NCBI RefSeq assembly: GCF_023913735.1
Contig: NZ_JAMXBH010000013.1
Coordinates: forward strand, 1-64,000
Direction: 5' to 3'
From: Pseudarthrobacter raffinosi
Lineage (GTDB): Bacteria; Actinomycetota; Actinomycetes; Actinomycetales; Micrococcaceae
DNA: 64,000 nt
The translations under genes were made by a program, and so were the position numbers. Below the pieces are notes generated by a model. It searched no databases, was not told where the DNA came from, and was given only the letters and a program-made list of their open reading frames with translations. Shown in pieces: positions 124 through 17,117 of the stretch (positions are counted from its first letter, which is position 1; every line of letters starts with the position of its first letter).

Positions 124-1341
124 ATGGGCATCCCGGCAACCAAGGTCAGCAAGGTCCGCATGACGGGGCCGTTGGCTCCGTTCGCGTCTGCTTTCAGATC
201 CAAGTTGAAGGATCTGGGCTATGCGCCGTTAACGATAGCCAGTGAGCTGAGGATGGCGGCCGACTGGAGCCGCTGGCTTCAGGAACGGTCATTGTCAGCA
301 GCGGACGTGACGAGCGTTCTGGTCGGCCAGTTCGTCTCGGAGAGACGCTCCGCAGGACGCATTTCCCCGTATCCGCCCCGCGTCTTCAACACAATGATCG
401 AGATCCTCGTGGAACGGGGCGTGGTCCAGGCCGGGACCGAGGCACCCGTGCCTGGCTCACCGGTCGATGTACTGCTTGGCTCGTTCGACAGGTTCCTGCT
501 TGCGGAGCGGGGGCTGGCCCGGTGCACGGCGACCGCTTATGTGTTGCGGGCCCGCCGTTTTCTGGCCCAGCAGGTGCCATCGGACGTCCTGGCTGATCTG
601 AAGGCCAAGGATGTGACCGATGCCGTGCGCGCCGAAGCAGCGATGGTCTCGGTCGGTTCCACCCAATTCTTCGTGGTGGCCGTGCGCTCGTTCCTGCGCT
701 TTTGTTTCATCGAGGGACTGATCCCGGCCGACCTTTCGGGAGCGGCCCTGACCATTACCGGACGCCGCCGCTCACCCTTGGCTGCGGGGATCACCACCGC
801 CGACACGCGGAGGCTCCTTGGTACCTGTGACCGGCGGGGACGTGATGGGCGCAGGGACTATGCCATCTTGCTCATCCTCCTCCGCCTGGGCCTGCGGGCC
901 AGTGAGGTCGCCGCGCTGAGCCTCGAAGACATCGACTGGCGCGCCGGGTTGATCGTGGTCCATGGCAAGGGCAGCCGTGATGACCGGCTGCCTCTTCCTG
1001 TTGATGTGGGCCAGGCGATCACCGGCTACCTCCAGCGGGGACGCCCGCGAACGCTTCATCGGGAAGTCTTCGTCAGGTCTTTGGCACCCCTTGAAGCGCT
1101 GGGCCGGGGCGGGATCTCCACAGTCGTCCGCCGCGCCTGCCAGCGGGCCGGACTCGCCCCGATCGGTGCCCACCGCCTGCGCCATACCCTTGCCTGTGAG
1201 ATGGTCAATTCCGGCGTTCCTCTGACCGAGATCGCCCAAGTGCTCCGCCACCGGAGCCTGGAGAGCGCCGCCCTCTACGCCCGTCTGGACATAGATGGTC
1301 TCCGTGCACTGGCCCGGCCATGGCCAGGAGGTGAGCGGTGA
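124..1341 (+). CDS. ritA: RIT tyrosine recombinase, first of trio (RitA-like)
   Basis: Site-specific recombinase of the phage-integrase (tyrosine) family, expected to cut and rejoin DNA at the element ends through a 3'-phosphotyrosine intermediate. The 405-residue protein has an N-terminal SAM-like DNA-binding region (about 20-200) and a C-terminal catalytic domain with all key residues: R258 in LGLRASEV, K282 in HGKGSRDD, H350 and R353 in HRLRHT, H376 in LRHRS, and nucleophile Y385. The start is supported by AAGGAGGAAGAC directly before ATG. The stop overlaps the next start, so the three recombinases are probably translationally coupled. It looks intact. RitA is assigned by position and length only. 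Confidence 0.85.
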   Translation: MGIPATKVSKVRMTGPLAPFASAFRSKLKDLGYAPLTIASELRMAADWSRWLQERSLSAADVTSVLVGQFVSERRSAGRISPYPPRVFNTMIEILVERGVVQAGTEAPVPGSPVDVLLGSFDRFLLAERGLARCTATAYVLRARRFLAQQVPSDVLADLKAKDVTDAVRAEAAMVSVGSTQFFVVAVRSFLRFCFIEGLIPADLSGAALTITGRRRSPLAAGITTADTRRLLGTCDRRGRDGRRDYAILLILLRLGLRASEVAALSLEDIDWRAGLIVVHGKGSRDDRLPLPVDVGQAITGYLQRGRPRTLHREVFVRSLAPLEALGRGGISTVVRRACQRAGLAPIGAHRLRHTLACEMVNSGVPLTEIAQVLRHRSLESAALYARLDIDGLRALARPWPGGER

Positions 1342-2261
1342 TGGTCGACCTCGTCGGCCACGTCCGGGACTATCTGGAACTGCGGCGCGCTCTGGGCTTC
1401 AAACTCGTTTTCGAAGGCTACGTTCTTCCCCGCTTGGCAAACTTCATCGAGGCCTCGGGTGCCGGCACCCTAACGACCGAGCTAGCCATCTCATGGGCGT
1501 GCCAGCCGGAGGATGTCCAACCCATCACCTTGGCCCACCGGCTCGGAGCGGCCCGCGGGTTCGCCCGCTATCTGAAGACCATCGACCCGGCAACGGAAAT
1601 CCCTCCGCTGGACGTTTTCGGGACGCACCGGCAACGTCCCACACCCTATCTGTGGTCCAAAGACGAGATCGCAGCACTACTTGAAGCGACCCTTCAGATC
1701 CGTCCGGAACTGCGGGCCCTCACCCACGAAACCCTGTTTGGCCTCATTGCTGTCACAGGGCTGCGGCTCGGGGAGGCAACCGGGCTCCTACGCGAGGACG
1801 TCAACCTCACCGACGGCATACTCACCGTCACGGAGGCAAAGTTCGACAGGACCAGATTGATCCCCCTTCATCCGAGTACGACGGCAGCCCTGGCCTCCTA
1901 CGCCCAACGCCGGGACAGGCTCTGTCCCGGACCACAGACGGCCGCGTTCTTCCTCTCGCACGCGGGGACCATGCTTCGCGTCAAAGGCGTTGATGCAACG
2001 TTCAATAACATCACGACCGGGATTGGGCTACGCACCGCCACCGTGAAGCCGCGCATCCACGATCTCAGACACACTTTCGCCGTCCAAACGCTCATCGATT
2101 GGCACCGGACCGGAGCTGATATCGGAGCCGGCGTGCCTGTCTTATCGACCTATCTCGGCCACGTCAGCCCGGCGGGCACCTACTGGTACCTCTCCGCCGC
2201 CCCAGAGCTCATGGCGTTAGCCGCCGAACGGCTCGACCGCCGATTCGGGGCCCAATCATGA
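1341..2261 (+). CDS. ritB: RIT tyrosine recombinase, second of trio (RitB-like)
   Basis: Second tyrosine recombinase of the trio, 306 residues from the chosen ATG. A GTG one codon earlier is equally possible, because both follow an AGGAGGTG site inside the end of the first gene. Catalytic residues are visible: R142 in TGLRLGEA, K167, H240 and R243 in HDLRHT, H274 in YLGHVS, and a tyrosine at 281 or 283 in TYWYLS. The spacing between the last histidine and the tyrosine is slightly unusual, as in the TnpB-like recombinases of Tn554-type elements. The reading frame is intact. It likely acts with its two neighbours in one recombination complex, but that is inference. Confidence 0.83.
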   Translation: MVDLVGHVRDYLELRRALGFKLVFEGYVLPRLANFIEASGAGTLTTELAISWACQPEDVQPITLAHRLGAARGFARYLKTIDPATEIPPLDVFGTHRQRPTPYLWSKDEIAALLEATLQIRPELRALTHETLFGLIAVTGLRLGEATGLLREDVNLTDGILTVTEAKFDRTRLIPLHPSTTAALASYAQRRDRLCPGPQTAAFFLSHAGTMLRVKGVDATFNNITTGIGLRTATVKPRIHDLRHTFAVQTLIDWHRTGADIGAGVPVLSTYLGHVSPAGTYWYLSAAPELMALAAERLDRRFGAQS

Positions 2262-3247
2262 CTGCCTTGGCTCCCACGCTTCAGGCATTCTTCACTGACC
2301 GACTCCTTGGCCAGCGTGGCGCCAGCCCGCACACGATCGATGCCTACCGGACCACCTTCCGACTCCTGCTCGGCTATGCCAGCGACAAACTACATAAGCC
2401 ACCCAGTGGACTCGATCTCGGTGAGCTCGACGCCCCTCTCGTCGCCGCTTTTCTGGCTCATCTTGAAACGGCCCGGCACAACACCGTGCGGACCCGCAAC
2501 AACCGGCTGGCTGCCATCCACTCGCTCTTCACCTACGCGGCCCTGCGCCACCCGGAACACGCGGCCTCGATCCAACGGGTGCTCTCCATCGGGCCCAAAC
2601 GCTTCGACACCAACCTCGTGACGTTCCTCAGCGAAGCCGAAGTCAACGCACTCCTGAACGCGTGCAACAAAGACACCTGGACCGGGCGGCGCGACCACAC
2701 CATGATCCTTCTGGCCATCCAGACCGGGTTGCGGATCTCGGAACTGACCGGGCTCACGTGCGCCGATGTGTCACTGGGACCCGGGGCTAACATCCACTGC
2801 ATCGGGAAGGGACGCAAGGAGCGCCGCACCCCGCTCACACCCTCCACCGTCGGTGTTCTTCGAGCATGGCTGCGTGAACGCGGTGGGTCACCAGAGGATC
2901 CGCTATTCCCCACAAGCACCGGCAAGAAACTCAGTCGTGACGCCATCGAACACCGGATCACCCACTACACCGCCACAGCAGGAGCAACCTGCCCATCAAT
3001 GAGAATCAAGCACGTCACCACCCACACCCTGCGCCATACAGCGGCGATGCGGCTTCTGCTCTCCGGGGTGGACGTGACGGTCATCGCGCTCTGGCTCGGG
3101 CATTCACAGATCTCCTCAACCAACGCCTATCTGCACGCAGACATGTCGCAAAAGGAACGAGCCATCGCCCGCGTCACACCTCCGGACACCGCCCCTGGCC
3201 GCTATCGTCCTCACGACCCGGTCCTGGCCTTCCTCGAGGCCCTGTGA
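2258..3247 (+). CDS. ritC: RIT tyrosine recombinase, third of trio (RitC-like)
   Basis: Third tyrosine recombinase of the trio, 329 residues, starting in an ATGA overlap with the preceding gene. An N-terminal SAM-like core-binding domain covers about 5-105. The catalytic domain contains R159 in TGLRISEL, K184 in GKGRKE, H256 and R259 in HTLRHT, H282 in WLGHSQ and Y291 in NAYLHADM. All residues for strand cleavage are present. Only about 80 bases separate its stop from the deduced right boundary of the element, so the repeats just downstream are likely its substrates. Confidence 0.85.
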   Translation: MTALAPTLQAFFTDRLLGQRGASPHTIDAYRTTFRLLLGYASDKLHKPPSGLDLGELDAPLVAAFLAHLETARHNTVRTRNNRLAAIHSLFTYAALRHPEHAASIQRVLSIGPKRFDTNLVTFLSEAEVNALLNACNKDTWTGRRDHTMILLAIQTGLRISELTGLTCADVSLGPGANIHCIGKGRKERRTPLTPSTVGVLRAWLRERGGSPEDPLFPTSTGKKLSRDAIEHRITHYTATAGATCPSMRIKHVTTHTLRHTAAMRLLLSGVDVTVIALWLGHSQISSTNAYLHADMSQKERAIARVTPPDTAPGRYRPHDPVLAFLEAL

Positions 3248-3329
3248 TTATGCCGACAAATCCGGTCCAAACAGCCCGCTGAGCAGGAGCCACGCGAAAA
3301 GGTCGGCATAACGCGAAGGTCGGCATAAT
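3248..3329. repeat. RIT right-end repeats
   Basis: A 10-bp word occurs three times between the last recombinase gene and the interrupted transposase: TTATGCCGAC at 3248-3257, and its reverse complement GTCGGCATAA at 3302-3311 and 3319-3328. The two right-hand copies are direct repeats 17 bp apart (start to start) and the left copy is inverted. This layout resembles multiple recombinase-binding sites at an element end. The left end needed for comparison lies outside the window. Confidence 0.6.
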
Positions 3330-4032
3330 CCGAATCGATCCCGAGGATCGGGAACGGGAACCGGGCCAGCGCGTACTCCAGCGCCAGGAGCACCCACTTC
3401 TGGGCCTTGTTCGGCACGGACCGGTTCACCGTCCACCCGGTGGCGATGTCAGTGACGGTCAGGGTGTGACAGAACTCCCCGGACGCGACCCCTCCTTCAT
3501 GGCCGACCAAGTCAATTTCCACGAACCCGGGCACCGCCTCGTCCCAGTCCGCCCAGGTCCGGACCGGGATCTGGGACTTCAGCAACGACCCCGGCTTGGT
3601 ATGGGACCGGCCCCGCAGCACCAGTTTCGCCCGCTCCGGAGCCAACCGCCGGTCGATGGTCGCCGCACTCATCCGCATCAGCAGCCCCGCATCCTCGTCC
3701 GTCAAGGCCAATTCCCCGTCCCGCCGCAGCAAAGGCACGAGTACCGGCAACATCGGCGCCAGCCGCTTGCCCGCCGGCGCCCTGAGCACCGCCCAGCACA
3801 CCACGAGCGCCTCGATGACCGCCGGCCCGTACACCGGGGCCCGCGGCGGACGGGAACGCACCGGCCGCAACTCCAGCGCCTGCCGCAGCGCCCGGCGGGC
3901 ATAATCACGGTTCCAGCCCGTCAGATCCACCAACTCATCCAGGATCCGCACCTTCCCGGCGCGATTCGCCCGGGCATAAGCCCGTGCCTTGATCACCGTG
4001 ACAGCCTGCCGCTGGCTCATCGTCAGTCCCAT
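3328..4032 (-). pseudogene. DDE transposase (rve-type), truncated by the RIT element
   Basis: The first 235 residues of an integrase-catalytic-domain transposase remain. An N-terminal helix-turn-helix region (LVDLTGWNRDYARRAL) is followed by the first catalytic aspartate in FVEIDLVGHEGG. The sequence is coherent up to GIDSD, where families of this type continue with NGSEF and later the catalytic glutamate. Immediately after that aspartate the reading enters the RIT right-end repeats and becomes meaningless until a stop near 3211. The gene is therefore cut inside its catalytic core by the RIT insertion, and the missing 3' half should lie beyond the left edge of the window. A second in-frame ATG at 4020 could be the original start. 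Confidence 0.8.
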
Positions 4033-4204: not shown

Positions 4205-4582
4205 TTAATTGCCGATGACGAGCATGCTCGCGGCGGCTTCGATGACGTCGTTGGTGATGGTTTCGAGTTGGCTGATTTTCAGGACGCGGGTGATTTGCGG
4301 GAATAGCCGCTGGAGGAGCCGGAAATTGCATCGGGTGATCGCGGCGATTGCCTGGGCGTCGGTGAAGTCCTCGGGGTCGAGTGAGTGCCCCACGCGTTTC
4401 CAGTGCCGGTCGCGAACAAAGAGGCGTTCCTCGCGGCCGAGCGCGCGGTAGCGGTGGGAGAAGCCGAGGCGGCTGTAGAGCTGCGGGTAGTGGCGGAATC
4501 GTTGGTCAATACCGGGCATGCCGATGAGGATCATCGCAAGATGGGTGCGGTCGTGGTTGGCGCGGAGGAGCTCCAGGGCAAG
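4205..4582 (-). pseudogene. C-terminal remnant of an AAA ATPase transposition protein (TniB/IstB-like)
   Basis: About 126 residues are preserved, beginning LALELLRANHDRTHL and including ILIGMPGIDQRFRHYPQLYS, LDPEDFTDAQAIAAI and FRLLQRLFPQITRVLKI. They resemble the sensor and C-terminal part of AAA ATPases that act as target-selection partners of DDE transposases. The Walker A and B region is absent. Upstream of residue LALEL the same frame continues but reads as antisense of a different gene fragment. The ITRCNF stretch looks like a small internal deletion relative to what I recall of the family. The gene is a fragment, probably non-functional. It may have partnered the neighbouring truncated transposase, but that is inference. 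Confidence 0.65.
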
Positions 4583-4682
4583 GTCAGCGAACTTTGCTCT
4601 GAACTCGGGATTACCCGCCAGACACTCTATCGGGCACTTGTCTCCTACTGGGGAGCTGCGTCCGGACGGCCAAAAGCTCCTA
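4580..4682 (+). pseudogene. C-terminal HTH tail of a serine recombinase, frameshifted
   Basis: KVSELCSELGITRQTLYR in one frame joins HLSPTGELRPDGQKLL in the next after a single-base shift near 4632-4634. Together they give the helix-turn-helix tail typical of resolvase/invertase proteins. The fragment begins exactly where the minus-strand AAA remnant ends, so 4580-4582 marks a recombination junction. No catalytic domain is present. Nothing recognisable follows until the small gene ending at 4791. Confidence 0.6.
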
Positions 4683-4790
4683 TCCCGCTGGAGACCTTTA
4701 GGCATGGATGGGCCAGGGCAGAGGATTCTTTCCTGCACCAAGCATGGGACCAGTCTCCCGCGGCCAGGTTTGGGGAAACCCGAACGGGCG

Positions 4791-5033
4791 CTACGTACCG
4801 GTGTGGGTCTCGGAGTCCCACGCCCGCTGCTCGCGGGTCTGCCCGTATGGGACCTCACGACTGATTGCTACGGTGTAGTGCGTGAAGCTGTGCTGGGTGA
4901 CCATGATGCCGTTGCGGCGTTCCCGCATGGCGTGCCGGCGCACGGTTTCCACGGCGGTGTTGAGACCTGTTTCAAGACTTGTTTGGTCACGGGCGACAAC
5001 TTCCATGGCTCCGGGTTTAGGCCGCTGGTTCAT
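4791..5033 (-). CDS. Small conserved-looking hypothetical protein (80 aa)
   Basis: The start was chosen at the ATG preceded by AGAGAGG with six-base spacing; a longer reading to 5120 lacks such a site. The 80-residue protein has a basic helical middle (VETVRRHAMRERRNGI) followed by MVTQHSFTHYTVAIS and VPYGQTREQRAW, with no transmembrane segment, signal peptide or cysteine. It resembles small unannotated proteins I associate with Arthrobacter-type genomes, but I cannot assign a function. It stands alone between recombinase remnants and the GMC oxidoreductase gene. Confidence 0.55.
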   Translation of the reverse strand: MNQRPKPGAMEVVARDQTSLETGLNTAVETVRRHAMRERRNGIMVTQHSFTHYTVAISREVPYGQTREQRAWDSETHTGT

Positions 5034-5382: not shown

Positions 5383-6924
5383 TTAGTGCCGGTGGCTGAC
5401 GTCGGTGACTTCGTGCGGGGCGACGCCGAGAATACCTGCGGCGATGCGCGCGCCGATCATTGCAGTGGGGAGGTTGATGTTGCCGCGCGTGATGGTGGGC
5501 ATGATCGAGGCGTCGGCGACGTACAGCCCGGGCACTCCGTGCACGGCGCCGTCGCTTCCAACGACGGCCATGGCGTCCGTGGCCGGTCCCATCTTGCAGG
5601 TTCCTGCCGGGTGGCAGTAATTGACGATGTCCTCAAGTGGGGCGGTTTTCCCGGGGACCCGGTCACCGAGGATGGTTGCGAGTTCGGGCTGGCGGACCAT
5701 TGATTCCATGAGGTCCAGTGCCTCGGACAGGACGGTCCTGTCGTACCCTTCCGGGTCTGTTCCGTAGCGGTGGTCGATCGCGGGGGTGTTGATGTCCAGG
5801 TCTGGGTTGAGGGTGACGGTTCCTTCCGAGCGGGCACGCATCGCGCCGCCGTAAAGGGTGATGGGCGGCAAACCTGGGTGGCCGCTGTTTGCTCCGGCGA
5901 CCATGAACACGTGGATGTCGTAGGGGCCGTCATCGCACACGCTGGATTTTGCCCTTCCCACGGTCTGCTCGTCGGGATTCCACGGGAGTTTGGCGAGTTC
6001 TTCGACCAGGCCTGGCTGGCCGGAAAAGTCGAGCTGCACGCAGGAATGGTCGAGGAGGTGTTTTCCGACGCCGGGAACATTGGCCTGGACCGCGATGCCA
6101 AGGGCGTTCAGTTCGTCTGCGGGTCCGACGCCGGAGCGCAGCAGCAGTGCCGGGGAGTGGTAGGCGCCTGCTGCGACCACGACCCGGCGGGCCGTGATGT
6201 AGCCCTCTCCTTCGGCGCTGCTGACGAATACGCCGCGGGCGAGGCCGTCAACGATGTTGATTCGTGTGACCTGGACGCCGCCGGCGATGGTCAGGTTCGG
6301 CCGGTCCCGGACTGGATCGAGGAATGCGAAGGCACTGTTCCAGCGGACGCCGTCCACGACGTTGACCGGCATGGGGCCGATGCCCTCGGCTGCTTCCAGA
6401 TCGTCCAGGTCATCGGCGAAGGGCAGCCCTGCCGCTACTCCTGCGTTGACGAAGGCGCGCTGGGGGGGCGTCAGTTCGTCCATGCTGTAGCGGCGGACCC
6501 GGAACCGGTCCCGGACCCAGTCCAGGAGCGGTTCGACTTCATCGGCCGACCAGCCGGGGTTGCCGGCGTGGGCCCACTCGTCGTATTCGTGGCGTGCCCC
6601 CACGGAAGCTGTGCAGCCGTTGTGGGAGGAACAGCCGCCCATGATGCGTGCCCGGGGCAGGTCCAGGACGCCTGCTCCGGAGGAGCGGCTGGCGTGCAGG
6701 TCGTAGTCGTGGGAGAGCGGAATTGACCGGGCGTCGAGCATGTCTTCGGGCCACTCGCCCGAGTCCCGGGTGCCGTAATCCGGTCCTGCTTCGAGCAGCA
6801 GGACGCTTTCGTCGCTGTGGGCTGCGAAGGTTCCGGCGAAAGCAGCTCCGCCGGTCCCGCCGCCGATGACGATGGTGTCCGCGAAGGAGGGAAGGCTGGC
6901 AAGGGGCTTGGTGGAGGTGTTCAT
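5383..6924 (-). CDS. GMC-family FAD oxidoreductase
   Basis: A glucose-methanol-choline family flavoprotein of 513 residues, normal for choline-dehydrogenase-like members; these oxidise an alcohol group to an aldehyde, ketone or lactone. The N terminus has the FAD-binding GGGTGGAAFAG (21-31) and LLLEAGPDY, then the GMC signature region MGGCSSHNGC. The C-terminal domain has CHPAGTCKMG, with the catalytic histidine region, and RGNINLPTAMIGARIA. No signal peptide is seen, so it is probably cytoplasmic. It lies 69 bases after the permease gene in the same direction, suggesting that it oxidises the imported compound or a derivative. The acceptor and substrate cannot be read from sequence. The start is supported by AGGACACC before ATG. 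Confidence 0.85.
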   Translation of the reverse strand: MNTSTKPLASLPSFADTIVIGGGTGGAAFAGTFAAHSDESVLLLEAGPDYGTRDSGEWPEDMLDARSIPLSHDYDLHASRSSGAGVLDLPRARIMGGCSSHNGCTASVGARHEYDEWAHAGNPGWSADEVEPLLDWVRDRFRVRRYSMDELTPPQRAFVNAGVAAGLPFADDLDDLEAAEGIGPMPVNVVDGVRWNSAFAFLDPVRDRPNLTIAGGVQVTRINIVDGLARGVFVSSAEGEGYITARRVVVAAGAYHSPALLLRSGVGPADELNALGIAVQANVPGVGKHLLDHSCVQLDFSGQPGLVEELAKLPWNPDEQTVGRAKSSVCDDGPYDIHVFMVAGANSGHPGLPPITLYGGAMRARSEGTVTLNPDLDINTPAIDHRYGTDPEGYDRTVLSEALDLMESMVRQPELATILGDRVPGKTAPLEDIVNYCHPAGTCKMGPATDAMAVVGSDGAVHGVPGLYVADASIMPTITRGNINLPTAMIGARIAAGILGVAPHEVTDVSHRH

Positions 6925-6993
6925 GGTGTCCTGGTTCCTGATGTTTTGCGGCTTGGCGGGAGCGGATTCCGTGCCAGGCCACGCTGTGCTTTG

Positions 6994-8472
6994 TTAAACG
7001 GAAGGTGTCGCTGACTTCGAGTAGACCTGATCGACGTCCGGGAGTTCTCCGGCCCGGGCCATCCAGGCCCGTTTACCGGGGCGCAGGTTGCGTCCGAACA
7101 GGACGGCAGCACCCAGGGCGACGTAGGTCAGTGCGAGGAAAGGGGCGAAGAATACGGGGTAGGCCGGGAGCGGGACGATGCTGTTGTACGCGATGGTGAG
7201 CAGCGCGGTGGTAGAGACGACGGGGGCGAGGACGTGGGCCCAGATGTTGAATTCGTTCGGGTGCTTGCGGCGGAAGAACATGAACGCGGCGATGTTCATC
7301 AGGATGAAGATCGGAATGTATACGAAGGTTCCGGTGGTGCCGAGCATGTTGAACAGGTTGTACGGTCCCAAGGGAAGCCCGACTGCCAGGCAAATGCCCA
7401 GGGCGACGGCTGATTGGACGTAGACGGCCGTGATTGGGGTGCGGTGCTTGGGCTGGGTGCGTGCGAAGAAGGCCGGGAGCGCGCCGGTCCGGGCGATGCC
7501 GTAGATCGTGCGGGTGGCACTGGTCGTGCAGGCGATGCAGACGCCCAGGCCCGAGTTCACGAGCGCAATGAGTACCAGGATCGAGGCTCCGCTCCACAAA
7601 CGGTCCGCGAGGACGAAGGCCGGTGCGGTGGGGGAAGCGGCCAGCGCGGCGATGTCGTTGGTGCCCCAGCCGATTTGGAGGCCCCATGCGGTGACGACGT
7701 AGAAGACACCGATCAGCACCAGTGAACCGAAGATCGCCTTCGGAACGATCCGCTTTGGATCTCGTGATTCCTCGCCGACCGCGGCGGCGCTTTCGAACCC
7801 GGTGAAGGCAAAGATCGAGAGCACGATGGCGAGGAAGAAACCTGAGGGGTTTTGGACGTTGGCGGGGTTGAATCCGTCCAGGTTCACACCCCCGGGGCCC
7901 GGGTTGAACATGCCGGTGACTGCGAGTCCGAGACCGACCGCCATCTCGAAAATGGTCATCACCACAAGGAATTTGATGGAGATGACGATGCCGCGGTAGG
8001 CGCAGGCGAAGCAGATGGCCAGGATCACGGTTGAGTAGATCCACCAGGGGATGCCGATCCCGTACTTGCCGCTGAGTTCGTCGGCGAGGACCGCACCGGT
8101 GAAGGCGGCCAGGGCTGCGGGGACGATGGTGACCATGATCGCGTACAGCCATCCGGTCATGAAGCCGGCCTTTGGCCCGATGCCCGCGGAAACATAGGTG
8201 TAGAAGCCTCCGGCGGAGGGCAGATGGCGTGCGAGGCCGAGCATCGGAACCGCAATCACCAGGCAAACGAGGAACGCGGAGAGGTAGGTCAGGGGCGCCG
8301 ATACCCCTGCCTGGCCGGTGGTGAAAGCGATCGTGTAGAAGATGCCCAAGGTCGGGGAGATTTGCGCGATCGACTGCATCAAGGTTCCGCCGAGGCCGAT
8401 GGAGCCTTTCTGCAACCCGGAGTCAAGGGCCTTGCCCTGCACCTCCGGGGACTCTGGCTGATTGGTCAACAT
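6994..8472 (-). CDS. APC-superfamily amino acid permease
   Basis: A 492-residue integral membrane transporter of the amino acid-polyamine-organocation superfamily. About twelve hydrophobic segments are visible, starting with the family-like IAQISPTLGIFYTIAF and including GFESAAAVGEESRDPKR, typical of the loop after the sixth helix. The ATG at 8472 was chosen because AAAGGAGAGCAG precedes it; the longer reading adds an unlikely segment. Substrates of this family are amino acids, amines and some sugar-amino acid conjugates such as fructoselysine. With a SIS-domain enzyme and a sugar kinase next door, a glycated or amino-sugar compound is a reasonable guess, not a demonstration. Confidence 0.85.
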   Translation of the reverse strand: MLTNQPESPEVQGKALDSGLQKGSIGLGGTLMQSIAQISPTLGIFYTIAFTTGQAGVSAPLTYLSAFLVCLVIAVPMLGLARHLPSAGGFYTYVSAGIGPKAGFMTGWLYAIMVTIVPAALAAFTGAVLADELSGKYGIGIPWWIYSTVILAICFACAYRGIVISIKFLVVMTIFEMAVGLGLAVTGMFNPGPGGVNLDGFNPANVQNPSGFFLAIVLSIFAFTGFESAAAVGEESRDPKRIVPKAIFGSLVLIGVFYVVTAWGLQIGWGTNDIAALAASPTAPAFVLADRLWSGASILVLIALVNSGLGVCIACTTSATRTIYGIARTGALPAFFARTQPKHRTPITAVYVQSAVALGICLAVGLPLGPYNLFNMLGTTGTFVYIPIFILMNIAAFMFFRRKHPNEFNIWAHVLAPVVSTTALLTIAYNSIVPLPAYPVFFAPFLALTYVALGAAVLFGRNLRPGKRAWMARAGELPDVDQVYSKSATPSV

Positions 8473-8492
8473 ACTGCTCTCCTTTGAACTGA

Positions 8493-8534
8493 TGAACGAA
8501 ACGGTAAAAAATAATCGAACATTCTGTACGTTCA
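8493..8534. promoter_or_regulatory. Candidate regulator half-sites before the permease gene
   Basis: The leader carries TGAACGA (8493-8499), TCGAACA (8515-8521) and CGTTCA (8529-8534). TCGAACA is the same arm as in the palindrome between the SIS and DeoR genes. Its recurrence suggests that the DeoR-type protein also controls the permease-oxidoreductase unit. Confidence 0.4.
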
Positions 8535-8640
8535 TTCTGACACGTTTAATGTTTATTAAGCTAATGATTGTTTGTTTTTCTGTTGCAATATTGTGAGCCC
8601 CGGGTCACTGCAAACGTTTGCCGCTTCCGGCGGGTGCGGC

Positions 8641-9588
8641 TCAGGAGTACACGGCGGGAACGTGGAGGAAGGCGGCGCCGATGGCTCCGCCGTAGTCATC
8701 GAGGCCGGTCTTGCTGAGCTGGGCGTAGTGGATCCATGGGCCGAGCCGTTGCAGAGATCGCTCGACCGTGTGGCTGTACATGTCGAAGTGTTGTGCGGCG
8801 CTGCCACCCAGCACAACGTTTTCCGGCCTGTAGGCGGCGAGCAGTGTCCCCAGGCCGTCGGCGATCGCGAGTCCGTAGTCCCTGAAAACGTCTGTTGCCT
8901 GCTTCTCGCCACGGCGGGCGCGTGCGGCCAGTTCGGCGATCGCTGTCCTGTGTGTGGGTCCTTTTCCAAGGAGATCTGCCGCGGAGCGCTGCAGGGTCTG
9001 GCGTGAGGCGTTTTGTTCCCAGCAGGCCTCGCGTCCGCAGTAACAGGCTGAGGTCGTGGCGACTGCGACGGTGATGTGGCCGGTTTCCGGATGCATTCCA
9101 TCGCCGCCGCGCAGGGGCTTGCCATCAATGAGCATGCAGGCGCCGATCCCGGTGCCCAACGTGACGTGGAGCAGGCTCCGTGAGTTCTTTGCCGCACCCA
9201 CGCGCTGCTCCGCCAGTGCGGCACACACAGCGTCGTTGTCGATCGCTACCGGCACGCCAAAGACTCCTGCGAGACTGGCCACGATCGGCTCTCCGGTAAA
9301 ACTCAGGAGGGTGTCAGGATTGCGGATGATCCCATCTGCATCCACCGGACCGCTCGCCCCGATTCCGATTGCCTCTATTGTCCGTCCGGGTGCGAGTCCG
9401 CCGATATGGTCAGCGAGGAATTCCGCCGCTGTTCCGTTGGTAAACGCACCGGGAGTGGTGGTGGCGAGCCGGGCGAGGACGTGGTTCTTTGCATCCAGGG
9501 CGACGAATCGTATGCCTGTTCCGCCGATATCAATTCCGACCCGGAGGCCTGGCGATCCTTCGTTCAGGTTCAAAGGTTCGGCGGACAT
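8641..9588 (-). CDS. ROK-family sugar kinase
   Basis: A 315-residue ROK protein (repressor/ORF/kinase family) without the N-terminal DNA-binding domain of ROK repressors, so a kinase is more likely. Visible features are the phosphate-binding GIDIGGTGIRFVALD (18-32), the catalytic aspartate region IDND (116-119), LGTGIGA (144-150), and a zinc site made of H171 in ETGHITV and the cysteines of CYCGREAC (182-189). Its ATG follows the stop codon of the upstream SIS gene without a gap, so the two are probably translationally coupled. The expected reaction is ATP-dependent phosphorylation of a hexose or amino sugar. The exact sugar is unknown. Confidence 0.85.
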   Translation of the reverse strand: MSAEPLNLNEGSPGLRVGIDIGGTGIRFVALDAKNHVLARLATTTPGAFTNGTAAEFLADHIGGLAPGRTIEAIGIGASGPVDADGIIRNPDTLLSFTGEPIVASLAGVFGVPVAIDNDAVCAALAEQRVGAAKNSRSLLHVTLGTGIGACMLIDGKPLRGGDGMHPETGHITVAVATTSACYCGREACWEQNASRQTLQRSAADLLGKGPTHRTAIAELAARARRGEKQATDVFRDYGLAIADGLGTLLAAYRPENVVLGGSAAQHFDMYSHTVERSLQRLGPWIHYAQLSKTGLDDYGGAIGAAFLHVPAVYS

Positions 9589-10623
9589 CTAGATCACCGT
9601 CGTGATTTTGGAGCCGTAGATGAAGGCGCCCGGAACGACGTTGTTGGCGCGCGCCAGACCGACTGCGAACAACTCTGCGATTACGGAGCTGGCCGAGAGC
9701 TGGGCCAGTGGACTGGTCCCGGTAACCGGTACCGTGAGCGCGCCAGGGATTTCGTCGTCGCCAACGATGAGTACCTGTGAACCGGTATCGACCAAGTCCG
9801 CGGCAAGCAGGCGCAGACTCTCATCCGGTGCCTGGGCTTGAAGGCCGAAAAGCACTACCGTCAGACCGTCACCGGCCAGTTCAAACGGGCCGTGCCGGAA
9901 CTGTCCGCCGATAAATCCCTCAGCAGGGACTTTGGATGATTCCTTGGTGATCAGGGCCGAGAACAGTGCGGTCGCGGATTCATCGCCCCTGCCCACGTAG
10001 GCCAAACGCCGCTGGGGATGGCTGGCGGTGGCAGCAGCGACGCCCGCTACGTCCACCGCGCCGATCAGGCTTTCGACGATATCGGCGGTGGACAGGATGT
10101 CCTCGTTGATCCGCTCCAGTGTTTCGCCGGCAAAGGCTCCTGACAACATGCGGTGCACGGCCAGAGAATTGAGGTAGCTCTTGGTGCTGACCGTGGCCTC
10201 TTTCCCACTGTGCAATGGCAGGAAGACATCCGAACCCAGGGCGAGTGGGCTTTCAGGGTCGTCAGCTATCCCGATCAGAAGGGCCGGTGAAATCACGCCC
10301 GAAGCCCTCCGGTTGAGAAGCTCGACAACTTCCCCACTCGCCCCGGACTGCGAGGTCACGACCAGGAGAGTGTTCGGGGTAACGGCCTTCGGGTTATCCA
10401 GGAGTTGTCCGATATCGATGCTCCATGCCGGCCGACCCAGCGCCGTCAGACGCCGCCAGCTCGGAATGCCCGCAAAATGCGATGAACCCATACCCGCGAA
10501 AACGATCCGGTCCCAGCTCGAGCCGGCCATCGCGCGCAGATCAGGCAGCGAAGCCGCCGCGAGTCGCCTCAGAGCCTCGGGTTGTTCAGCGATGTCGAGC
10601 TCGAATGGTGTCATCTCAGTCAT
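9589..10623 (-). CDS. SIS-domain sugar phosphate isomerase/deglycase-like protein
   Basis: A 344-residue protein with tandem SIS folds as in the isomerase half of GlmS, AgaS and FrlB. The first domain shows GMGSSHFAG (44-52) and VTSQSGASGEVVELL (89-103), the phosphosugar-binding loop; the second covers about 190-330. No glutaminase domain is present. Such proteins act on phosphorylated ketoses or amino sugars. Beside a ROK kinase and an APC permease, a deglycase or deaminating isomerase role is plausible. The chosen ATG follows AAAAAGGATC at a longish spacing, and a second ATG lies three codons later. This is the first gene of the minus-strand operon, divergent from the DeoR gene. Confidence 0.8.
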   Translation of the reverse strand: MTEMTPFELDIAEQPEALRRLAAASLPDLRAMAGSSWDRIVFAGMGSSHFAGIPSWRRLTALGRPAWSIDIGQLLDNPKAVTPNTLLVVTSQSGASGEVVELLNRRASGVISPALLIGIADDPESPLALGSDVFLPLHSGKEATVSTKSYLNSLAVHRMLSGAFAGETLERINEDILSTADIVESLIGAVDVAGVAAATASHPQRRLAYVGRGDESATALFSALITKESSKVPAEGFIGGQFRHGPFELAGDGLTVVLFGLQAQAPDESLRLLAADLVDTGSQVLIVGDDEIPGALTVPVTGTSPLAQLSASSVIAELFAVGLARANNVVPGAFIYGSKITTVI

Positions 10624-10804
10624 GGTCTGGTAGATCCTTTTTCTCGGAGGGTGCCCCAGGTCGTCCAAGTCGCCTTGGCTGCCTTGAACGGCGGTTTCAT
10701 GATCTCTATACACACGCCCGGTCCAGATGGCTCGACTCGGTGGGAATATCCGCGTACGCAACACGGCAACCCGGTGCAATCAAAAGTAATATGAACAGCA
10801 TTAG

Positions 10805-10829
10805 TGTTCGATTAACGATATTTCGAACA
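10805..10829. promoter_or_regulatory. Palindromic candidate operator between SIS and DeoR genes
   Basis: TGTTCGA-N11-TCGAACA forms a perfect 7-bp-arm palindrome centred in the divergent intergenic region. Related half-sites recur before the permease gene. DeoR/GlpR proteins usually bind such sites as dimers or tetramers and are released by a phosphorylated sugar. Confidence 0.55.
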
Positions 10830-10904
10830 AATCAGATTGTCAATGGTGTCGGTTCAATGTTTGAATGAACGGACAGAAGGTAAGGTCCGCGAGAGGGGTA
10901 GTAG

Positions 10905-11672
10905 ATGGTTAGCGCGAAGCAGCGGCGCCACCAACAGGTTCTGGAGATACTCCAGGAAACCGGTACGGCCACCGTGGGAGAGATGGGCACCCGGTTGGGT
11001 GTGACCGAGATGACGATCCGCCGCGATCTGGAACTCCTGGAGGCAGACGGGGTCCTCAAACGGTTTCATGGCGGAGCCAAACTGGACTTCGGCAGCAGCT
11101 ACGAACCGCCGTTCCCGGTACGGGAGAAGACCAACGCCGAACAGAAACGCCTCATCGGCCAGCGGGTGGCATCCCTCATAGATGACGGTGACACCATCAT
11201 CCTGGATGGTGGCTCTACCGGACTCGCTGTCGCCGAGTACCTTCTCGACCGCCAACTGACCATCTGCCCGCTGTCCCTGCGAGTGGCTTGGGCCTTCGCA
11301 AGATCCACCTCGGTAAAACTCATCATCCCGGGCGGTTCCGTCCGCCCAGGGGAACTTAGCCTCAGCGGCGCGGACACCATCGACTATCTCCGCGGACGCC
11401 ACTTCGACACCTACGTCATGACAGCAAGCGGCCTTTCGCTAAACGAGGGCTTCACCGAGTGGAACCCGGAAGACGCAGCCGTCAAAAAGACCGCCGTGAG
11501 CGTCGCGGACAAAACCATCACAGCTGTGGACTCAAGCAAATTCAACCGCGTCGGATTCGTCAAAATCTGCCCAACGCAGGTACCCGCAGCGATCGTAACC
11601 GATGGCGGCGCCACCAGCGAGAACCTGGAAAAGCTCCGGCGCCAGTCCCAGGGAGTCATCGTGGCCGAGTGA
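10905..11672 (+). CDS. DeoR/GlpR-family transcriptional regulator
   Basis: A 255-residue regulator. The N-terminal DeoR helix-turn-helix (1-57) contains VGEMGTRLGVTEMTIRRDLE and KRFHGGAKL, the usual family landmarks. The C-terminal DeoRC sensor domain has DDGDTIILDGGSTG and a later region with SVADKTITAVDSSKF, which in relatives binds a sugar phosphate. GAGAGGGG precedes the ATG. It is divergent from the SIS-ROK-permease-GMC genes and most likely represses them until the phosphorylated intermediate accumulates. The following bases up to the IS element show no further gene. Confidence 0.88.
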   Translation: MVSAKQRRHQQVLEILQETGTATVGEMGTRLGVTEMTIRRDLELLEADGVLKRFHGGAKLDFGSSYEPPFPVREKTNAEQKRLIGQRVASLIDDGDTIILDGGSTGLAVAEYLLDRQLTICPLSLRVAWAFARSTSVKLIIPGGSVRPGELSLSGADTIDYLRGRHFDTYVMTASGLSLNEGFTEWNPEDAAVKKTAVSVADKTITAVDSSKFNRVGFVKICPTQVPAAIVTDGGATSENLEKLRRQSQGVIVAE

Positions 11673-11894: not shown

Positions 11895-13640
11895 CTAGGT
11901 GCGTGGGTCAGTAGTGAGGTGCCCGGTTTTTAAAACGCCGGCGGATTAGCCAGGTCCTGGCTCTGGTGGCTGGAAGAATCGGGGGCATGGATACCGGTTC
12001 TTCCGCGCAGGATGGTTTGTTCGACGAGTCGCTCGTGGAGCGGGTCGAGCAGCCCACCGATGTGCCGATGGATGCCAATGGCGGGATCAACAAGCGCTTC
12101 AAGGCGTTCGAGCCCGATGCGGTGATGCTGGTCCCGCCGTCGCTGGAGGAATGGTTGCCGCAGGGTCATCTGGCCCGGTTCATCGGCGAACTCGTCGACG
12201 GGGAACTGGATCTGGCCCGGTTCTACTCCTCCTACGCCAAGGCCAAGGGCCAGCCGCCGTATGACCCGCGGCTGATGCTGCGGATCCTGCTTTACGGGTA
12301 CTGCGTGGGGGTGCGGTCCTCGCGGGAACTGGAAAGAGCCTGCACGGACGTGGTCGCGTTCCGTTGGTTGTGCGCCCAGCAGGCCCCGGACTTCCGGTCG
12401 ATCGGGCGGTTCCGCGAACGCCACCTCGCCGCGCTGGCCAACGTGTTCCTCCAGGCGCTGGAACTCTGCCGGGCCGCGGGCATGGTCTCGCTGGGCCATG
12501 TCGCACTGGACGGGACGAAGGTCCGGGCCAACGCCTCCCGGCATAAGGCCATGAGCTATGCCCGGTTGACGGAGAAGCAGAAAGTCCTGGCCGATGAGAT
12601 CAGCGACCTGATGGCGGAGGCCAAGAGTGTGGACGCGGCCGAGGACGCCCGCTACGGGCCGGGCAAACGCGGCGATGAATTGCCGGCCGAGTTGGCTAAC
12701 CGGGCCCGGCGCGCCGAGGCGATGAAGACTGCCCGGGCGTCCATCGAGGCCGAGGCCGCGGACAAGGCACGCCGTGAGGCCGAAGAGAAGGCCCGGGCCC
12801 GCGGGGACGACGACGAGGATGTCTCCGGCAGGGGCGATGCCGCCGCTGCCGCGGCGGTCCCCAAGCCCACCGCCCAGCGGAACTTCACCGACCCCGACGC
12901 GAGGATCATGAAGACCGCGGACGGTTCCTACCACTACTGCTACAACGGCCAGGGCGTCGTTGATAAAGATCACCAGGTCATCGTTGCCACTGAACTGAAC
13001 AACACCGCGGTGGACGTGCAGCAACTGGTCCCGATGGTCCAGAACACCCAGGACACCCTGGAAGCCATGCCCCGCAAATGGAGCGCCGACGCCGGGTACT
13101 GCTCGGCGGCGAACCTGAAACACGTCAGGGACCTTGAAGCCGGTGGCGGCAGCGAATTCTTCATCTCCACACGGCGGATGAAACACAACCAACCGGTCCC
13201 GGAATCGCCACGGGGAAGGATCCCGGCGGATGCGACCCTGGCCGAGCGGATGGCCCGGAAACTGAAAACGAAGAAGGGCCGGGCGGTCTACGCCCGGCGC
13301 AAAGCCATCGTGGAACCGGTCTTCGGACAGATCAAAACGCGGCAGGGCAAGCATGTCCTGTTGCGCGGGCTGGAGAAGGCATCCGCGGAGTGGAAGTTGA
13401 TGGCCGGCTGCCACAACCTGCTCAAACTCTTCAGCTACCGCACCGCCACCGCCTGAACACCGCCGGGACGCGCCCCGCGACGCGCCTTCAGCACACGAAC
13501 TCCACACCGCAGGGACATGCCACGCCTCCTTCCGCGAAAATGCCAAGAGGCCGGCCTCTTCCCGGAAAAGGAGACCGACCTCGGGCCATCACGGCTCAAA
13601 CCTGCCGAACCGTCAAACCATTACTGACCCACGCACCTAG
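11895..13640 (+). mobile_element. IS1182-family insertion sequence, apparently complete
   Basis: The element is bounded by CTAGGTGCGTGGGTCAGTA at the left (11895-11913) and its exact reverse complement at the right (13622-13640). It encloses one intact transposase gene. The outermost CTAG is self-complementary, so it may be part of the inverted repeat or a 4-bp target duplication. Length is about 1.75 kb, ordinary for the family. Confidence 0.85.
11987..13456 (+). CDS. IS1182-family transposase
   Basis: A DDE transposase of 489 residues from the chosen ATG. The N-terminal DUF772-type domain contains PPYDPRLMLRILLYGYCVG and the dimer region FRSIGRFRERHL. The catalytic part shows the first aspartate in VALDGTKVRANAS, then a charged, alanine-rich insertion (about 200-285). 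A second catalytic region lies around SADAGYCSAANL, and the C-terminal segment is ARRKAIVEPVFGQIKTRQG with the family glutamate. No frameshift or stop is seen, so it is probably active. A start eight codons upstream is possible. Confidence 0.9.
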   Translation: MDTGSSAQDGLFDESLVERVEQPTDVPMDANGGINKRFKAFEPDAVMLVPPSLEEWLPQGHLARFIGELVDGELDLARFYSSYAKAKGQPPYDPRLMLRILLYGYCVGVRSSRELERACTDVVAFRWLCAQQAPDFRSIGRFRERHLAALANVFLQALELCRAAGMVSLGHVALDGTKVRANASRHKAMSYARLTEKQKVLADEISDLMAEAKSVDAAEDARYGPGKRGDELPAELANRARRAEAMKTARASIEAEAADKARREAEEKARARGDDDEDVSGRGDAAAAAAVPKPTAQRNFTDPDARIMKTADGSYHYCYNGQGVVDKDHQVIVATELNNTAVDVQQLVPMVQNTQDTLEAMPRKWSADAGYCSAANLKHVRDLEAGGGSEFFISTRRMKHNQPVPESPRGRIPADATLAERMARKLKTKKGRAVYARRKAIVEPVFGQIKTRQGKHVLLRGLEKASAEWKLMAGCHNLLKLFSYRTATA

Positions 13641-13659: not shown

Positions 13660-14892
13660 TCATGCAGCCGCCGGTGTGAGGTTGACATCGTAGCCGAGGG
13701 TTTTGAGCTGACGGATGGCCTTTGGCTTTGGTCTGTCCAGGTTCCCTCTTCAGGTAGAAGTCCGCGCCAGGATCCTTGTAAACCTCACCGTTGGCAGCAT
13801 GTGCCAGGTCGCGGTCAGGATGACGTGTTCGATGGCGACGATGGCTTTGACCCGGCCGCGCCGGATGGCGATCCGTTTGTATTTGACGCTGACGTAGGTG
13901 CTTCTGCCGCGGGACGCGGCCATCGCGGCGATGCCCAGCGCGCCCTTGAGATATTTGTTGCCGGGCATGATTCTTGTCGATTTGACCCGGCCGGCGGATT
14001 CGTTGGATCCCGGGCAGACACCGGCCCAGGATGCCAAGTGCGCGGCCGTGGGAAATGCGCTCATGTCGCCACCCGTCTCGGCGATGATCACGTCAGCGAC
14101 GAGTGTTGAGACACCAGGGATCGTGCTCAGCGCTTCCCTGGCCGCACGAAAGGGCTCCATCGCCGTGTCGATCTGTTCCGTCAGTACGGTGATGGTCCGG
14201 GCAAGCTGATCGATGCGGTCCAGATGCAGCCGGACCATGAAGGCATGATGCTCGCCAAACATGCCGGTGAGCGCTTCGGTTAGTGCCGGGATCTTTGACC
14301 TCATGCTGGCCCGGGCAAACTGCGCGAGTACCTGCGGATCCGTTCCCCACGGATCAACGCCTCGAGCATCGCCCGGGACGATACCCCGGTGAGTTCACTG
14401 ACTATGCCCGAAAGCTTAATTCCCGTGCTCTCGAGGAACTTCTCCAGGCGGTGAAGCTCCCGGGTTCTGTCCTGGACGGTGACGGCACGGGCCCGCGTCA
14501 GATCCCGCAATTCGCGGACAGGCCCGGGCGGAACGAACGAGGCCCGCAACAGCCCGTGCGCCAAGCTGCGCCAGCCATGCCGCGTCGGAAACGTCGGTTT
14601 TGCGCCCGGGCAGGTTCCTTGCATGTCTGGCGTTGACCAGCATGACCGGCAGGGACTCCTCAAGCAGGTAGTAGAACGGCTTCCAGTAATCGCTGGTCGC
14701 CTCCATCACTACGACCGTGACGTTCTGTTCTTCCAGAAACCTCCGTAACTCCAGGATCTGGTTTGTGGTGGATCCCCAGGTGGTGACTGTCGAGGTGAAC
14801 TGGCCCAGGCGCTTGCCCGGGACTCTGATACATACTTTTGCGTCGCGTTTGGATATATCCATCCCGACGGACCGCTCATGGACGATGTCCAT
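13660..14892 (-). pseudogene. IS110-family transposase with multiple frameshifts
   Basis: The N-terminal DEDD domain starts MDIVHERSVGMDISKRDA, with VVVMEATSDYWKPFYYLL and KTDVSDAAWLAQLGA. The frame is lost near 14555 and resumes as HGLLRASFVPPGP. It shifts again near 14305, after ALIRGER, before MRSKIPALTEALTGM. The transposase_20 domain (STIPGVSTLVADVIIAETGG, WAGVCPGSNESAG) is readable. A third shift lies near 13801 before GEVYKDPGADFYLKREPG, and a fourth near 13730 before IRQLKTLGYDVNLTPAA. Four small indels mean it is inactive. The gene would be about 400 residues if repaired, normal for the family. The end lies 20 bases from the IS1182 right repeat. Confidence 0.82.
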
Positions 14893-15664: not shown

Positions 15665-16993
15665 TCAGCTAACTGCGGTGAGTGCTTCGTCGTAGATCTT
15701 CAGTGCTTTGCGGACTTCCTCGGGGGTCACTACTGCAGGCGGGACAACGTGGATGCGGTTGTCGGCGATGAAGGGCAGAAGTCCGCGGGTCAGGAGTTCG
15801 GATTTGATGCGGCCCATGAAGGCAGGGGTGACGGGTTGGCGGGTCTGCTGGTCCTGGACAAGCTCGAGTGCCCAGAACACGCCGCGTCCCCGCACCTCGC
15901 CGATGACCGGGTGGCGGAGCGCGAGGGCAGCCAGGCCCGGCGCGAGGTGGTCCCGGCCGATGTGTTCGGCGTTTTCGACGATGCGTTCGTCTTCGAAGGC
16001 TTCTATGGAGGCCACGATGGATGCCGCGGCGAGGGGGTGGCCGGAGTAGGTCAGGCCGCCCGGGAACACCCGTTCGTCGAAGGTTGCTGAAATTTCTTCG
16101 GAGATGATGACGCCGCCCACCGGCACGTATCCGGAGTTGACGCCCTTGGCGAAAGTGATCAGGTCCGGCTTCGCGTTGTAGGCATCCAGGGCGAACCAGT
16201 CGCCGGTGCGGCCGAACCCGGCCATGACTTCATCCAGGATCAGGATGATTCCGTGCTGGTCGCAGAGCGCCCGAACGCCTTCGAGGTACCCGGGCGGCGG
16301 GAGCAGGATGCCGGCGGTGCCGGGGACGGTTTCGAGCAGGATGGCCGCCACGGACTGCGGTCCTTCAGCCTCGATGGTCCGGCGCAGGTGCTGCAGCGCG
16401 CGTTCCGCTTCCTGCTGCGGGGTTTCGGACCAGAACTCCGAGCGGTACAGGTAGGGCCCGAAGACGTGGACGTGGCCGCGGGAGTATTCGTTGGGGATCC
16501 GGCGCCAGTCGCCGGTGGCGGCGATCGCGGCTCCGGTGTTGCCGTGGTAGGAGCGGTACCGGGAGATGACCTTGTCCCGGCCGGTGTGCAGGCGTGCCAT
16601 CCGGATGGCGTTCTCGTTGGCGTCGGCGCCGCCGTTGGTGAAGAAGATTTTGTTCATCCCGGCAGGGGCGTGGGCCAGGATTTTTTCAGCGGCCAGGCCG
16701 CGGGTGTGGTTGGCATGGGCAGGGGCGACCGTCACTAGGGCGTCGGCCTGCTGCTTGATCGCTTCGATCACGCGCGGGTGCTGGTGGCCGATGTTGGTGT
16801 TGACCAGTTGGCTGGAGAAGTCCAGGTAGGTCCGGCCGTCGTGGTCCCAGACGGTGCTGCCCGAGCCGCCGGCGATGACCATGGGGTTGAGAGCTCCCTG
16901 GGCCGACCAGGAATGGAAGACGTTCGCCCGGTCCAGGGCGACCACTTCGGAATTCGTGACGGGTGCGGCCAAGGCGGTCCGGCTGTGGGCCAT
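15665..16993 (-). CDS. Class III omega-amino acid:pyruvate aminotransferase
   Basis: A PLP-dependent aminotransferase of 442 residues, normal for the class III (omega-aminotransferase) family. Landmarks are NGGADANENAIRMAR (120-134), SYHGNTGAAIAATGD, the cofactor aspartate D254 in ILILDEVMAGFGRTGDW, and the Schiff-base lysine K283 in ITFAKGVNSGYVPVGG. Known relatives use beta-alanine, taurine, GABA or putrescine with pyruvate or 2-oxoglutarate. With a methylmalonate/malonate semialdehyde dehydrogenase two genes away, beta-alanine or beta-aminoisobutyrate is the best guess. GAGAGGAACC precedes the ATG. It is divergent from the PucR-type regulator. Confidence 0.85.
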   Translation of the reverse strand: MAHSRTALAAPVTNSEVVALDRANVFHSWSAQGALNPMVIAGGSGSTVWDHDGRTYLDFSSQLVNTNIGHQHPRVIEAIKQQADALVTVAPAHANHTRGLAAEKILAHAPAGMNKIFFTNGGADANENAIRMARLHTGRDKVISRYRSYHGNTGAAIAATGDWRRIPNEYSRGHVHVFGPYLYRSEFWSETPQQEAERALQHLRRTIEAEGPQSVAAILLETVPGTAGILLPPPGYLEGVRALCDQHGIILILDEVMAGFGRTGDWFALDAYNAKPDLITFAKGVNSGYVPVGGVIISEEISATFDERVFPGGLTYSGHPLAAASIVASIEAFEDERIVENAEHIGRDHLAPGLAALALRHPVIGEVRGRGVFWALELVQDQQTRQPVTPAFMGRIKSELLTRGLLPFIADNRIHVVPPAVVTPEEVRKALKIYDEALTAVS

Positions 16994-17117
16994 GATGGTT
17001 CCTCTCGGGGACGGTGCAATGCGTTCCCTTCATAATCAGCCCGGACGCACGTCTGCGTCCTTAGACATTTGTATACTGAAGACCATGAAGATCGACGCTT
17101 TGGCATCGGTAGATTAA

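Follow-up and report, generated by a model that had tools for sequence, protein, structure and literature searches.

What compound would be consumed through an APC-family permease, a GMC oxidoreductase, a ROK-family sugar kinase and a GlmS-like SIS protein placed beside a DeoR regulator? The question is raised by a 64,000-nt stretch of the Pseudarthrobacter raffinosi genome (assembly GCF_023913735.1, contig NZ_JAMXBH010000013.1, positions 1 to 64,000, forward strand), referred to below as the window. Open reading frames (ORFs) and Pfam matches define a SIS-ROK-APC-GMC operon that runs from 10623 to 5383 on the minus strand, with the DeoR gene divergent at 10905-11672:

5383..6924, minus strand: GMC oxidoreductase, choline-oxidase-like (PF00732 2.5e-32, PF05199 3.5e-26)
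6994..8535, minus strand: APC-family permease (PF00324 3.3e-41; also PF13520)
8641..9588, minus strand: ROK-family sugar kinase, 315 aa (PF00480 5.4e-56, 190.7 bits)
9589..10623, minus strand: 344-aa SIS protein resembling the GlmS isomerase, a predicted amino-sugar-phosphate deaminase/isomerase (PF01380 1e-15)
10624..10904, no strand: intergenic control region between SIS and DeoR (alignment of the window with the A. terricola and G586 loci, L009 and L036)
10905..11672, plus strand: DeoR-family regulator (PF00455 1.2e-39, PF08220 1.7e-16)

The answer we put forward, tentatively and as one possibility, is an undescribed mobile oxidise-phosphorylate-deaminate pathway whose substrates would be free amino polyols (or N-linked sugar alcohols); the GMC enzyme would create the hexosamine, and two distant GMC subfamilies would have been joined to SIS-ROK cores. 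No description of a GMC-SIS-ROK pathway was found in our literature searches, which covered part of the open-licence papers in PubMed Central (PMC).

The gene set is real and patchily spread and is not a chance grouping, because all five genes recur together elsewhere. Seven further actinobacterial loci carry them: in A. terricola (L009, with a DeoR protein 78% identical to that of the window), G586 (L036), Specibacter (L011), an actinobacterial metagenome-assembled genome (L012), G769 (L049), G753 (L050) and G666 (L051). All five are also present at a Paraburkholderia locus (L017), but there the GMC protein is of a different type. The original prediction had proposed this grouping and had noted a ROK kinase in place of a PfkB kinase; both points are borne out, the former by ORFs, Pfam and recurrence, the latter by the PF00480 match. 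Partial versions also exist. A short contig of G761 (L047) carries APC, GMC, SIS and ROK, and where another contig ends (L048), SIS and GMC lie with the gene of a sugar-binding protein. Phytoactinopolyspora (L010) combines DeoR, SIS and GMC genes with a distant ROK gene and an importer of the sugar ABC type; on a Deinococcus plasmid (L015), an incomplete gene table shows only DeoR, GMC and SIS. Variants also occur in Paraburkholderia, Shinella, Ensifer and Aminobacter. Beside the Phytoactinopolyspora version lie a sugar ABC importer, a Gfo/Idh/MocA oxidoreductase and a NanE epimerase (L010 2145-7074). The GMC gene there appears truncated; the stretch is partly N, so loss is not claimed.

Genome searches scored only the top 3 to 7 candidates of each genome, so that misses are possible. 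They detected SIS at E<=1e-20 in its own genome alone among 99 searched, and at E<=1e-55 in 6/396 genomes of the order, its own included. Scanning genome contigs with the listed SIS ORF gave six loci, and a GMC search of the genus found 3/198 genomes, again with its own included and one of the others apparently A. terricola once more. Five distant SIS homologues from a phylum search (34-38% identity) all fall within one other taxonomic family; no GMC gene was seen in the three of the five neighbourhoods that were read, and one neighbourhood has a 29% identical ROK-like ORF ~5.5 kb away. The Paraburkholderia locus mixes Enterobacteria-like SIS and ROK proteins with a Shinella-like GMC protein and a permease 48% identical to that of the window, and thus parts appear to have been exchanged while the combination was kept. 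Since the spread is patchy and partly plasmid-borne, horizontal transfer is the simplest explanation for it, and the cluster is most simply explained as a transferable catabolic operon.

The GMC gene does not look incidental to this operon, given its co-occurrence with SIS, the presence of two distant GMC subfamilies and a frame shared with SIS. A GMC protein at least 66% identical to that of the window is encoded in the same 6/396 genomes of the order as SIS. Six further genomes hold GMC relatives of 39-42% identity, with SIS not found at the threshold used; the four of these six neighbourhoods that were read gave no BLAST match to the module SIS, ROK or APC. At L079 and L080, ~40% identical GMC relatives adjoin what by eye are phosphotriesterase-type hydrolases, which suggests another GMC pathway. 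The Specibacter GMC and SIS genes form a single open frame with zero stops between them; an internal GTG or TTG start is possible. A GMC-SIS fusion was also considered for G761 (L047) and rejected, as the GMC frame stops ahead of the SIS match.

The second GMC subfamily is ~30% identical to the window GMC, 59-78% identical to its Paraburkholderia member, and has no histidine at the position that links flavin adenine dinucleotide (FAD). It clusters with SIS and ROK in the best 6 of 1,089 plasmid records: Paraburkholderia, Shinella PSBB067, Shinella HZN7, Ensifer, Aminobacter and Shinella zoogloeoides, where the same arrangement was seen by BLAST alone on an unannotated record. On the SIS tree, the second GMC type must have been gained or lost in two separate events. 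The one 51% identical relative of this subfamily that was read adjoins an aldehyde dehydrogenase gene, with no SIS or ROK gene beside it.

For the window GMC, the best PDB match is choline oxidase. The two share the position of the FAD-linking histidine (H99/H101) and a His/Asn active-site pair; in the window protein these are H101 and H438/N482, kept in 11/11 rows of the GMC-A alignment, which left out the partly unread Phytoactinopolyspora protein. The roles of the covalent-FAD histidine and of the His/Asn pair are presumably those they have in choline oxidase. A single aldehyde dehydrogenase query (E<=1e-10) gave no match in 17/18 loci, which suggests that the carbonyl formed by GMC is retained; it is probably used as a sugar aldehyde or ketone rather than oxidised further. 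The window itself has an aldehyde dehydrogenase-like match at 18789-19997, 8 kb from SIS and beyond the transposases, alongside the aminotransferase locus at 15665-18665.

If the GMC enzyme supplies a carbonyl, what would the SIS enzyme do with it? The listed SIS ORF starts with TTG at 10779; the start that matches its homologues is the ATG at 10623, preceded by a AAAAAGGA-like ribosome site, and at its other end the gene abuts ROK (9589/9588). The 344-aa product has SIS domains alone, without the N-terminal glutaminase domain of the GlmS synthase. By alignment, its triad E228/H244/K339 is equivalent to E. coli GlmS E488/H504/K603, the C-terminal lysine included, residues whose roles in GlmS we take to be catalytic. 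These equivalents are kept in 24/24 non-outgroup rows of the SIS tree. The lysine position is Gly in E. coli FrlB and Thr in E. coli AgaS (alignment; FraB itself was left out). The tree comprised the S. meliloti protein and 23 proteins from module loci, their variants and relatives that have no GMC, with FrlB, AgaS and GlmS as outgroups; neither the third Shinella protein nor the homologues of the phylum search were included, and FrlB, AgaS and S. meliloti stand on long branches, so that their placement is unsure.

An AlphaFold model of the SIS protein (predicted local distance difference test, pLDDT, 88.3; predicted template modelling score, pTM, 0.90; residues 336-344 below 50) was used for structural comparison with GlmS, AgaS and FrlB, the check proposed for this protein. 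GlmS isomerase domains ranked first (Z 34-37) and FrlB lower (8glr, Z 26.8), with glucosamine-6-phosphate deaminases at Z 34.4 (7kqa), 33.6 (2cb0) and 31.2 (1j5x) and a single superfamily fold throughout. The modelled fold thus favours GlmS over FrlB without setting the window SIS apart from AgaS-type entries. Judged by its sequence, the protein is a putative GlmS-like enzyme. The E. coli Aga system has points of likeness, since the DeoR protein is nearest to AgaR among NCBIfam models (159.3 bits versus a cut-off of 260, with other sugar regulators also close) and the SIS fold score of 3c3j (Z 32.8) is similar. However, E. coli AgaS is without the lysine and shares 25.5% identity with the window SIS over 247 aa, and none of the five cluster genes is a phosphotransferase system or aldolase gene. 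Blocks GATTGTCAATGG and TGTTTGAAT in the SIS/DeoR intergenic region are common to the three Arthrobacter-type loci (the window, L009 and L036); an inverted repeat, TGTTCGA-N11-TCGAACA, is present in the window region and is not conserved in the other two.

SIS and ROK genes also occur together without GMC. One Erwinia locus (L013) has SIS, ROK, a sugar ABC importer and a DeoR match, with no GMC gene among ten further neighbours scanned; a second (L014) has SIS and ROK matches together with ORFs matching those of L013 in size. In the Erwinia family, SIS is present in 4/149 genomes (own included), the other three being one of the ABC type and two of the MFS type, with no GMC match in their SIS neighbourhoods. 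A Klebsiella plasmid (L016, NZ_MT810366.1, 8012-12336) carries DeoR, SIS, ROK and an MFS sugar porter as a cassette. Plasmid records matching SIS are mostly from Klebsiella (100/111), the listed ones all at equal identity, and a ROK gene adjoins SIS in most of those listed that have annotation. That the SIS-ROK core is found next to sugar transporters, either ABC importers or MFS porters, points to a sugar-like substrate.

Over 407 aa, the binding protein of the Erwinia importer shares 57% identity with that of an operon on S. meliloti pSymB. This operon encodes a binding protein, two permeases, a SIS protein, a PfkB kinase and an ATPase, with no GMC gene among the ORFs read. Its permeases and ATPase were identified by eye and from match names, and its SIS frame was taken as the sole one with two SIS matches among six matches of a pSymB domain search. 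Gene order fits SM_b21221-21216. SM_b21217 was concluded from fitness data to be a glucosamine kinase (PMC11378808), and galactosamine use was predicted for the SM_b21221-21216 genes (PMC4961836). The operon resembles the window in joining a sugar kinase to a GlmS-type SIS protein with the lysine, and the Erwinia module in having a sugar importer; unlike the window, it uses PfkB rather than ROK and an ABC rather than an APC transporter. The glucosamine-type importer ties the SIS-ROK core to hexosamines, with a different kinase family and a locus assigned from gene order.

How would the genes act together? The APC permease would import an amino sugar or amino polyol, and the GMC flavoenzyme would oxidise an alcohol near the amine to a carbonyl, giving an aldose or ketose form; one example would be C1 of a 2-amino-2-deoxyhexitol, which like choline is a beta-amino alcohol. 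The ROK kinase would phosphorylate the hexosamine thus formed, after which the GlmS-like SIS enzyme would release the amine and a ketose-6-phosphate (fructose-6-phosphate or an epimer), and DeoR would sense a sugar phosphate. For the kinase, the best PDB match is glucokinase 3vgk, and the motif CYCGREACWEQ fits CxCGxxxCxE, which we take to be the zinc-type motif of ROK proteins. The permease gene probably has its true start at about 8472 (a homologue has 482 aa), and its product is 48-90% identical to permeases of Arthrobacter, Specibacter, other actinobacteria and Paraburkholderia. The substrate, the reactions with their order, and the direction in which GMC would work are inferred from the genes. 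That the pathway belongs to this class, with oxidation, phosphorylation and hexosamine-type SIS deamination of an amino polyol or unusual amino sugar, has about an even chance in our estimation; that its substrate is a 2-amino-2-deoxyhexitol in particular is a rather doubtful suggestion.

Several observations weigh against this interpretation. Natural free hexosaminitols are rare, and bacterial use of them was not found in the part of the literature searched. Amino acids or amines are the usual cargo of APC permeases. K339 belongs to the C-terminal tail, which is modelled with low confidence, so its placement rests on the sequence alignment. AgaS-type entries score like the deaminases in the fold comparison (Z 32.8-34.9; 3i0z 34.9, 3odp 34.6, E. 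coli 3c3j 32.8), and Shewanella NagB-II entries (Z 27.0-30.4) come near FrlB. NCBIfam scores of the SIS protein are far below cut-off for GlmS (83.7 versus 381 bits) and NagB-II (NF046059, 58.1 versus 430 bits), which therefore leaves a GlmS-like enzyme whose substrate is not assigned by family. PRK09557 scores 93 bits on the window ROK, and as the ROK family also includes fructokinases, membership is no proof of an aldose substrate. The S. meliloti kinase is a PfkB protein, and the SIS protein of that operon is 26% identical to that of the window. The position of Glu312 in choline oxidase, which presumably binds the (trimethyl)ammonium group, is Cys295 in 11/11 GMC-A rows, and the choline analogy is therefore partial. 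Finally, the host carries nagA- and nagB-type genes elsewhere in its genome, the nagB family including other sugar-phosphate enzymes, and plain glucosamine-6-phosphate deamination would therefore be redundant.

Three other explanations deserve consideration. The cluster might serve plain glucosamine or galactosamine use; ROK would then be an alternative kinase and SIS an alternative deaminase for hexosamines, and GMC no more than a loosely linked oxidase. The enterobacterial versions read, which show no GMC gene, would fit this, as would the likeness of the importer to the one at the S. meliloti locus, which is assigned to glucosamine use. Yet GMC and SIS are found in the same 6/396 genomes, GMC proteins are drawn from two distant subfamilies, the Specibacter frame joins GMC and SIS, and the host has its nagA- and nagB-type genes. 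We consider this explanation unlikely. Among known enzymes, the SIS-type deaminases NagB-II and GlmD belong to the fold group of the window SIS (7kqa Z 34.4, 2cb0 Z 33.6); the window SIS differs in falling below family cut-offs and in being coupled to GMC and ROK, and no deacetylase was recognised in the cluster.

A Heyns-product (fructation) route is likewise improbable. Here, the APC permease would import an N-(2-deoxyglucos-2-yl) amino acid, the ROK kinase would phosphorylate the aldose, the SIS enzyme would release fructose-6-phosphate and the amino acid, and the GMC enzyme would act either on a side group or, once it is released, on the amine. The GlmS-type lysine suits C2-amine chemistry, the permease is of the APC family, many ROK kinases phosphorylate aldoses, and the route agrees with the earlier idea of a glycated amino acid. 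On the other hand, homologous cores use sugar ABC importers or MFS sugar porters, the GMC step is left without a clear job, and such a deglycase is not prominent in the part of the open-licence PMC literature covered.

Little probability also attaches to a reduced-Amadori route for mannopine or an N-alkylglucamine, in which GMC would oxidise C2 of an N-linked hexitol to an Amadori compound, ROK would phosphorylate it and SIS would deglycate it to glucose-6-phosphate and an amine. This would give GMC a natural role and the APC permease a counterpart in Frl, and plant and soil hosts suit opines; mannopine is oxidised to santhopine. The Frl/Fra systems share with the window an APC permease, a dual-SIS-domain enzyme and a kinase, and a likeness to fructosamine use had been proposed for the cluster. 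That likeness is weakened, since the lysine of the window SIS is lacking in E. coli FrlB and AgaS and FrlB ranks below GlmS in the fold comparison (Z 26.8 versus 34-37). The permease is 25% identical to FrlA over 343 aa, GMC is present, and the kinase is of the ROK family rather than PfkB, to which FrlD presumably belongs as a fructosamine kinase. A literature search on the reduced-Amadori route (open-licence PMC) gave zero results. The proposal of an acquired island is thus partly supported, in the form of a scattered and apparently acquired gene set for an amino-sugar-type compound, and loses its analogy to FrlB and fructosamines.

Choline use was set aside, since Glu312 is lost and no aldehyde dehydrogenase partner was found close by (one query). 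The standard N-acetylglucosamine pathway, named beforehand as an example of a standard route whose close characterised orthologues would overturn the prediction, was also set aside: the cluster looks unlike it, nagA/nagB-type genes lie elsewhere, and the SIS protein is far below family cut-offs.

On the amino-polyol reading, the cluster suggests that soil and plant bacteria of several phyla consume, through traded genes, an amino sugar or amino polyol that occurs in nature. None of the amino-sugar routes compared uses flavin oxidation as a first step. The gene set is small, one frame joins GMC and SIS, and GMC-free versions are available; the substrate is therefore directly testable.

As predicted, mobile remnants flank the cluster on both sides, with recombinases on the left and DDE and IS110-type transposases on the right (Pfam):

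124..3247, plus strand: three overlapping tyrosine recombinase genes, left flank (PF00589 in 3/3)
11966..13456, plus strand: DDE transposase, right flank (PF05598, PF01609, PF13751)
13750..14892, minus strand: IS110-type transposase, two ORFs, right flank (PF02371 and PF01548 in separate ORFs)

The recombinase genes overlap at 1338-1341 and 2258-2261 (ORF list), and we take the trio to be a RIT element (recombinases in trio); the DDE transposase is presumably of the IS1182 type. Two left-flank ORFs, 3211-4032 and 4205-4858, have no Pfam match; by eye, they may be remnants of a transposase and a transposition ATPase. Base composition shows no visible island boundary in the window, and Rfam and tRNA scans of the window gave zero matches. 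Further to the right, at 15665-18665, a class III aminotransferase gene (NCBIfam PRK06062, 746.5 bits, above the cut-off of 472) is divergent from a PucR-type regulator and forms a separate amine or amino acid locus.

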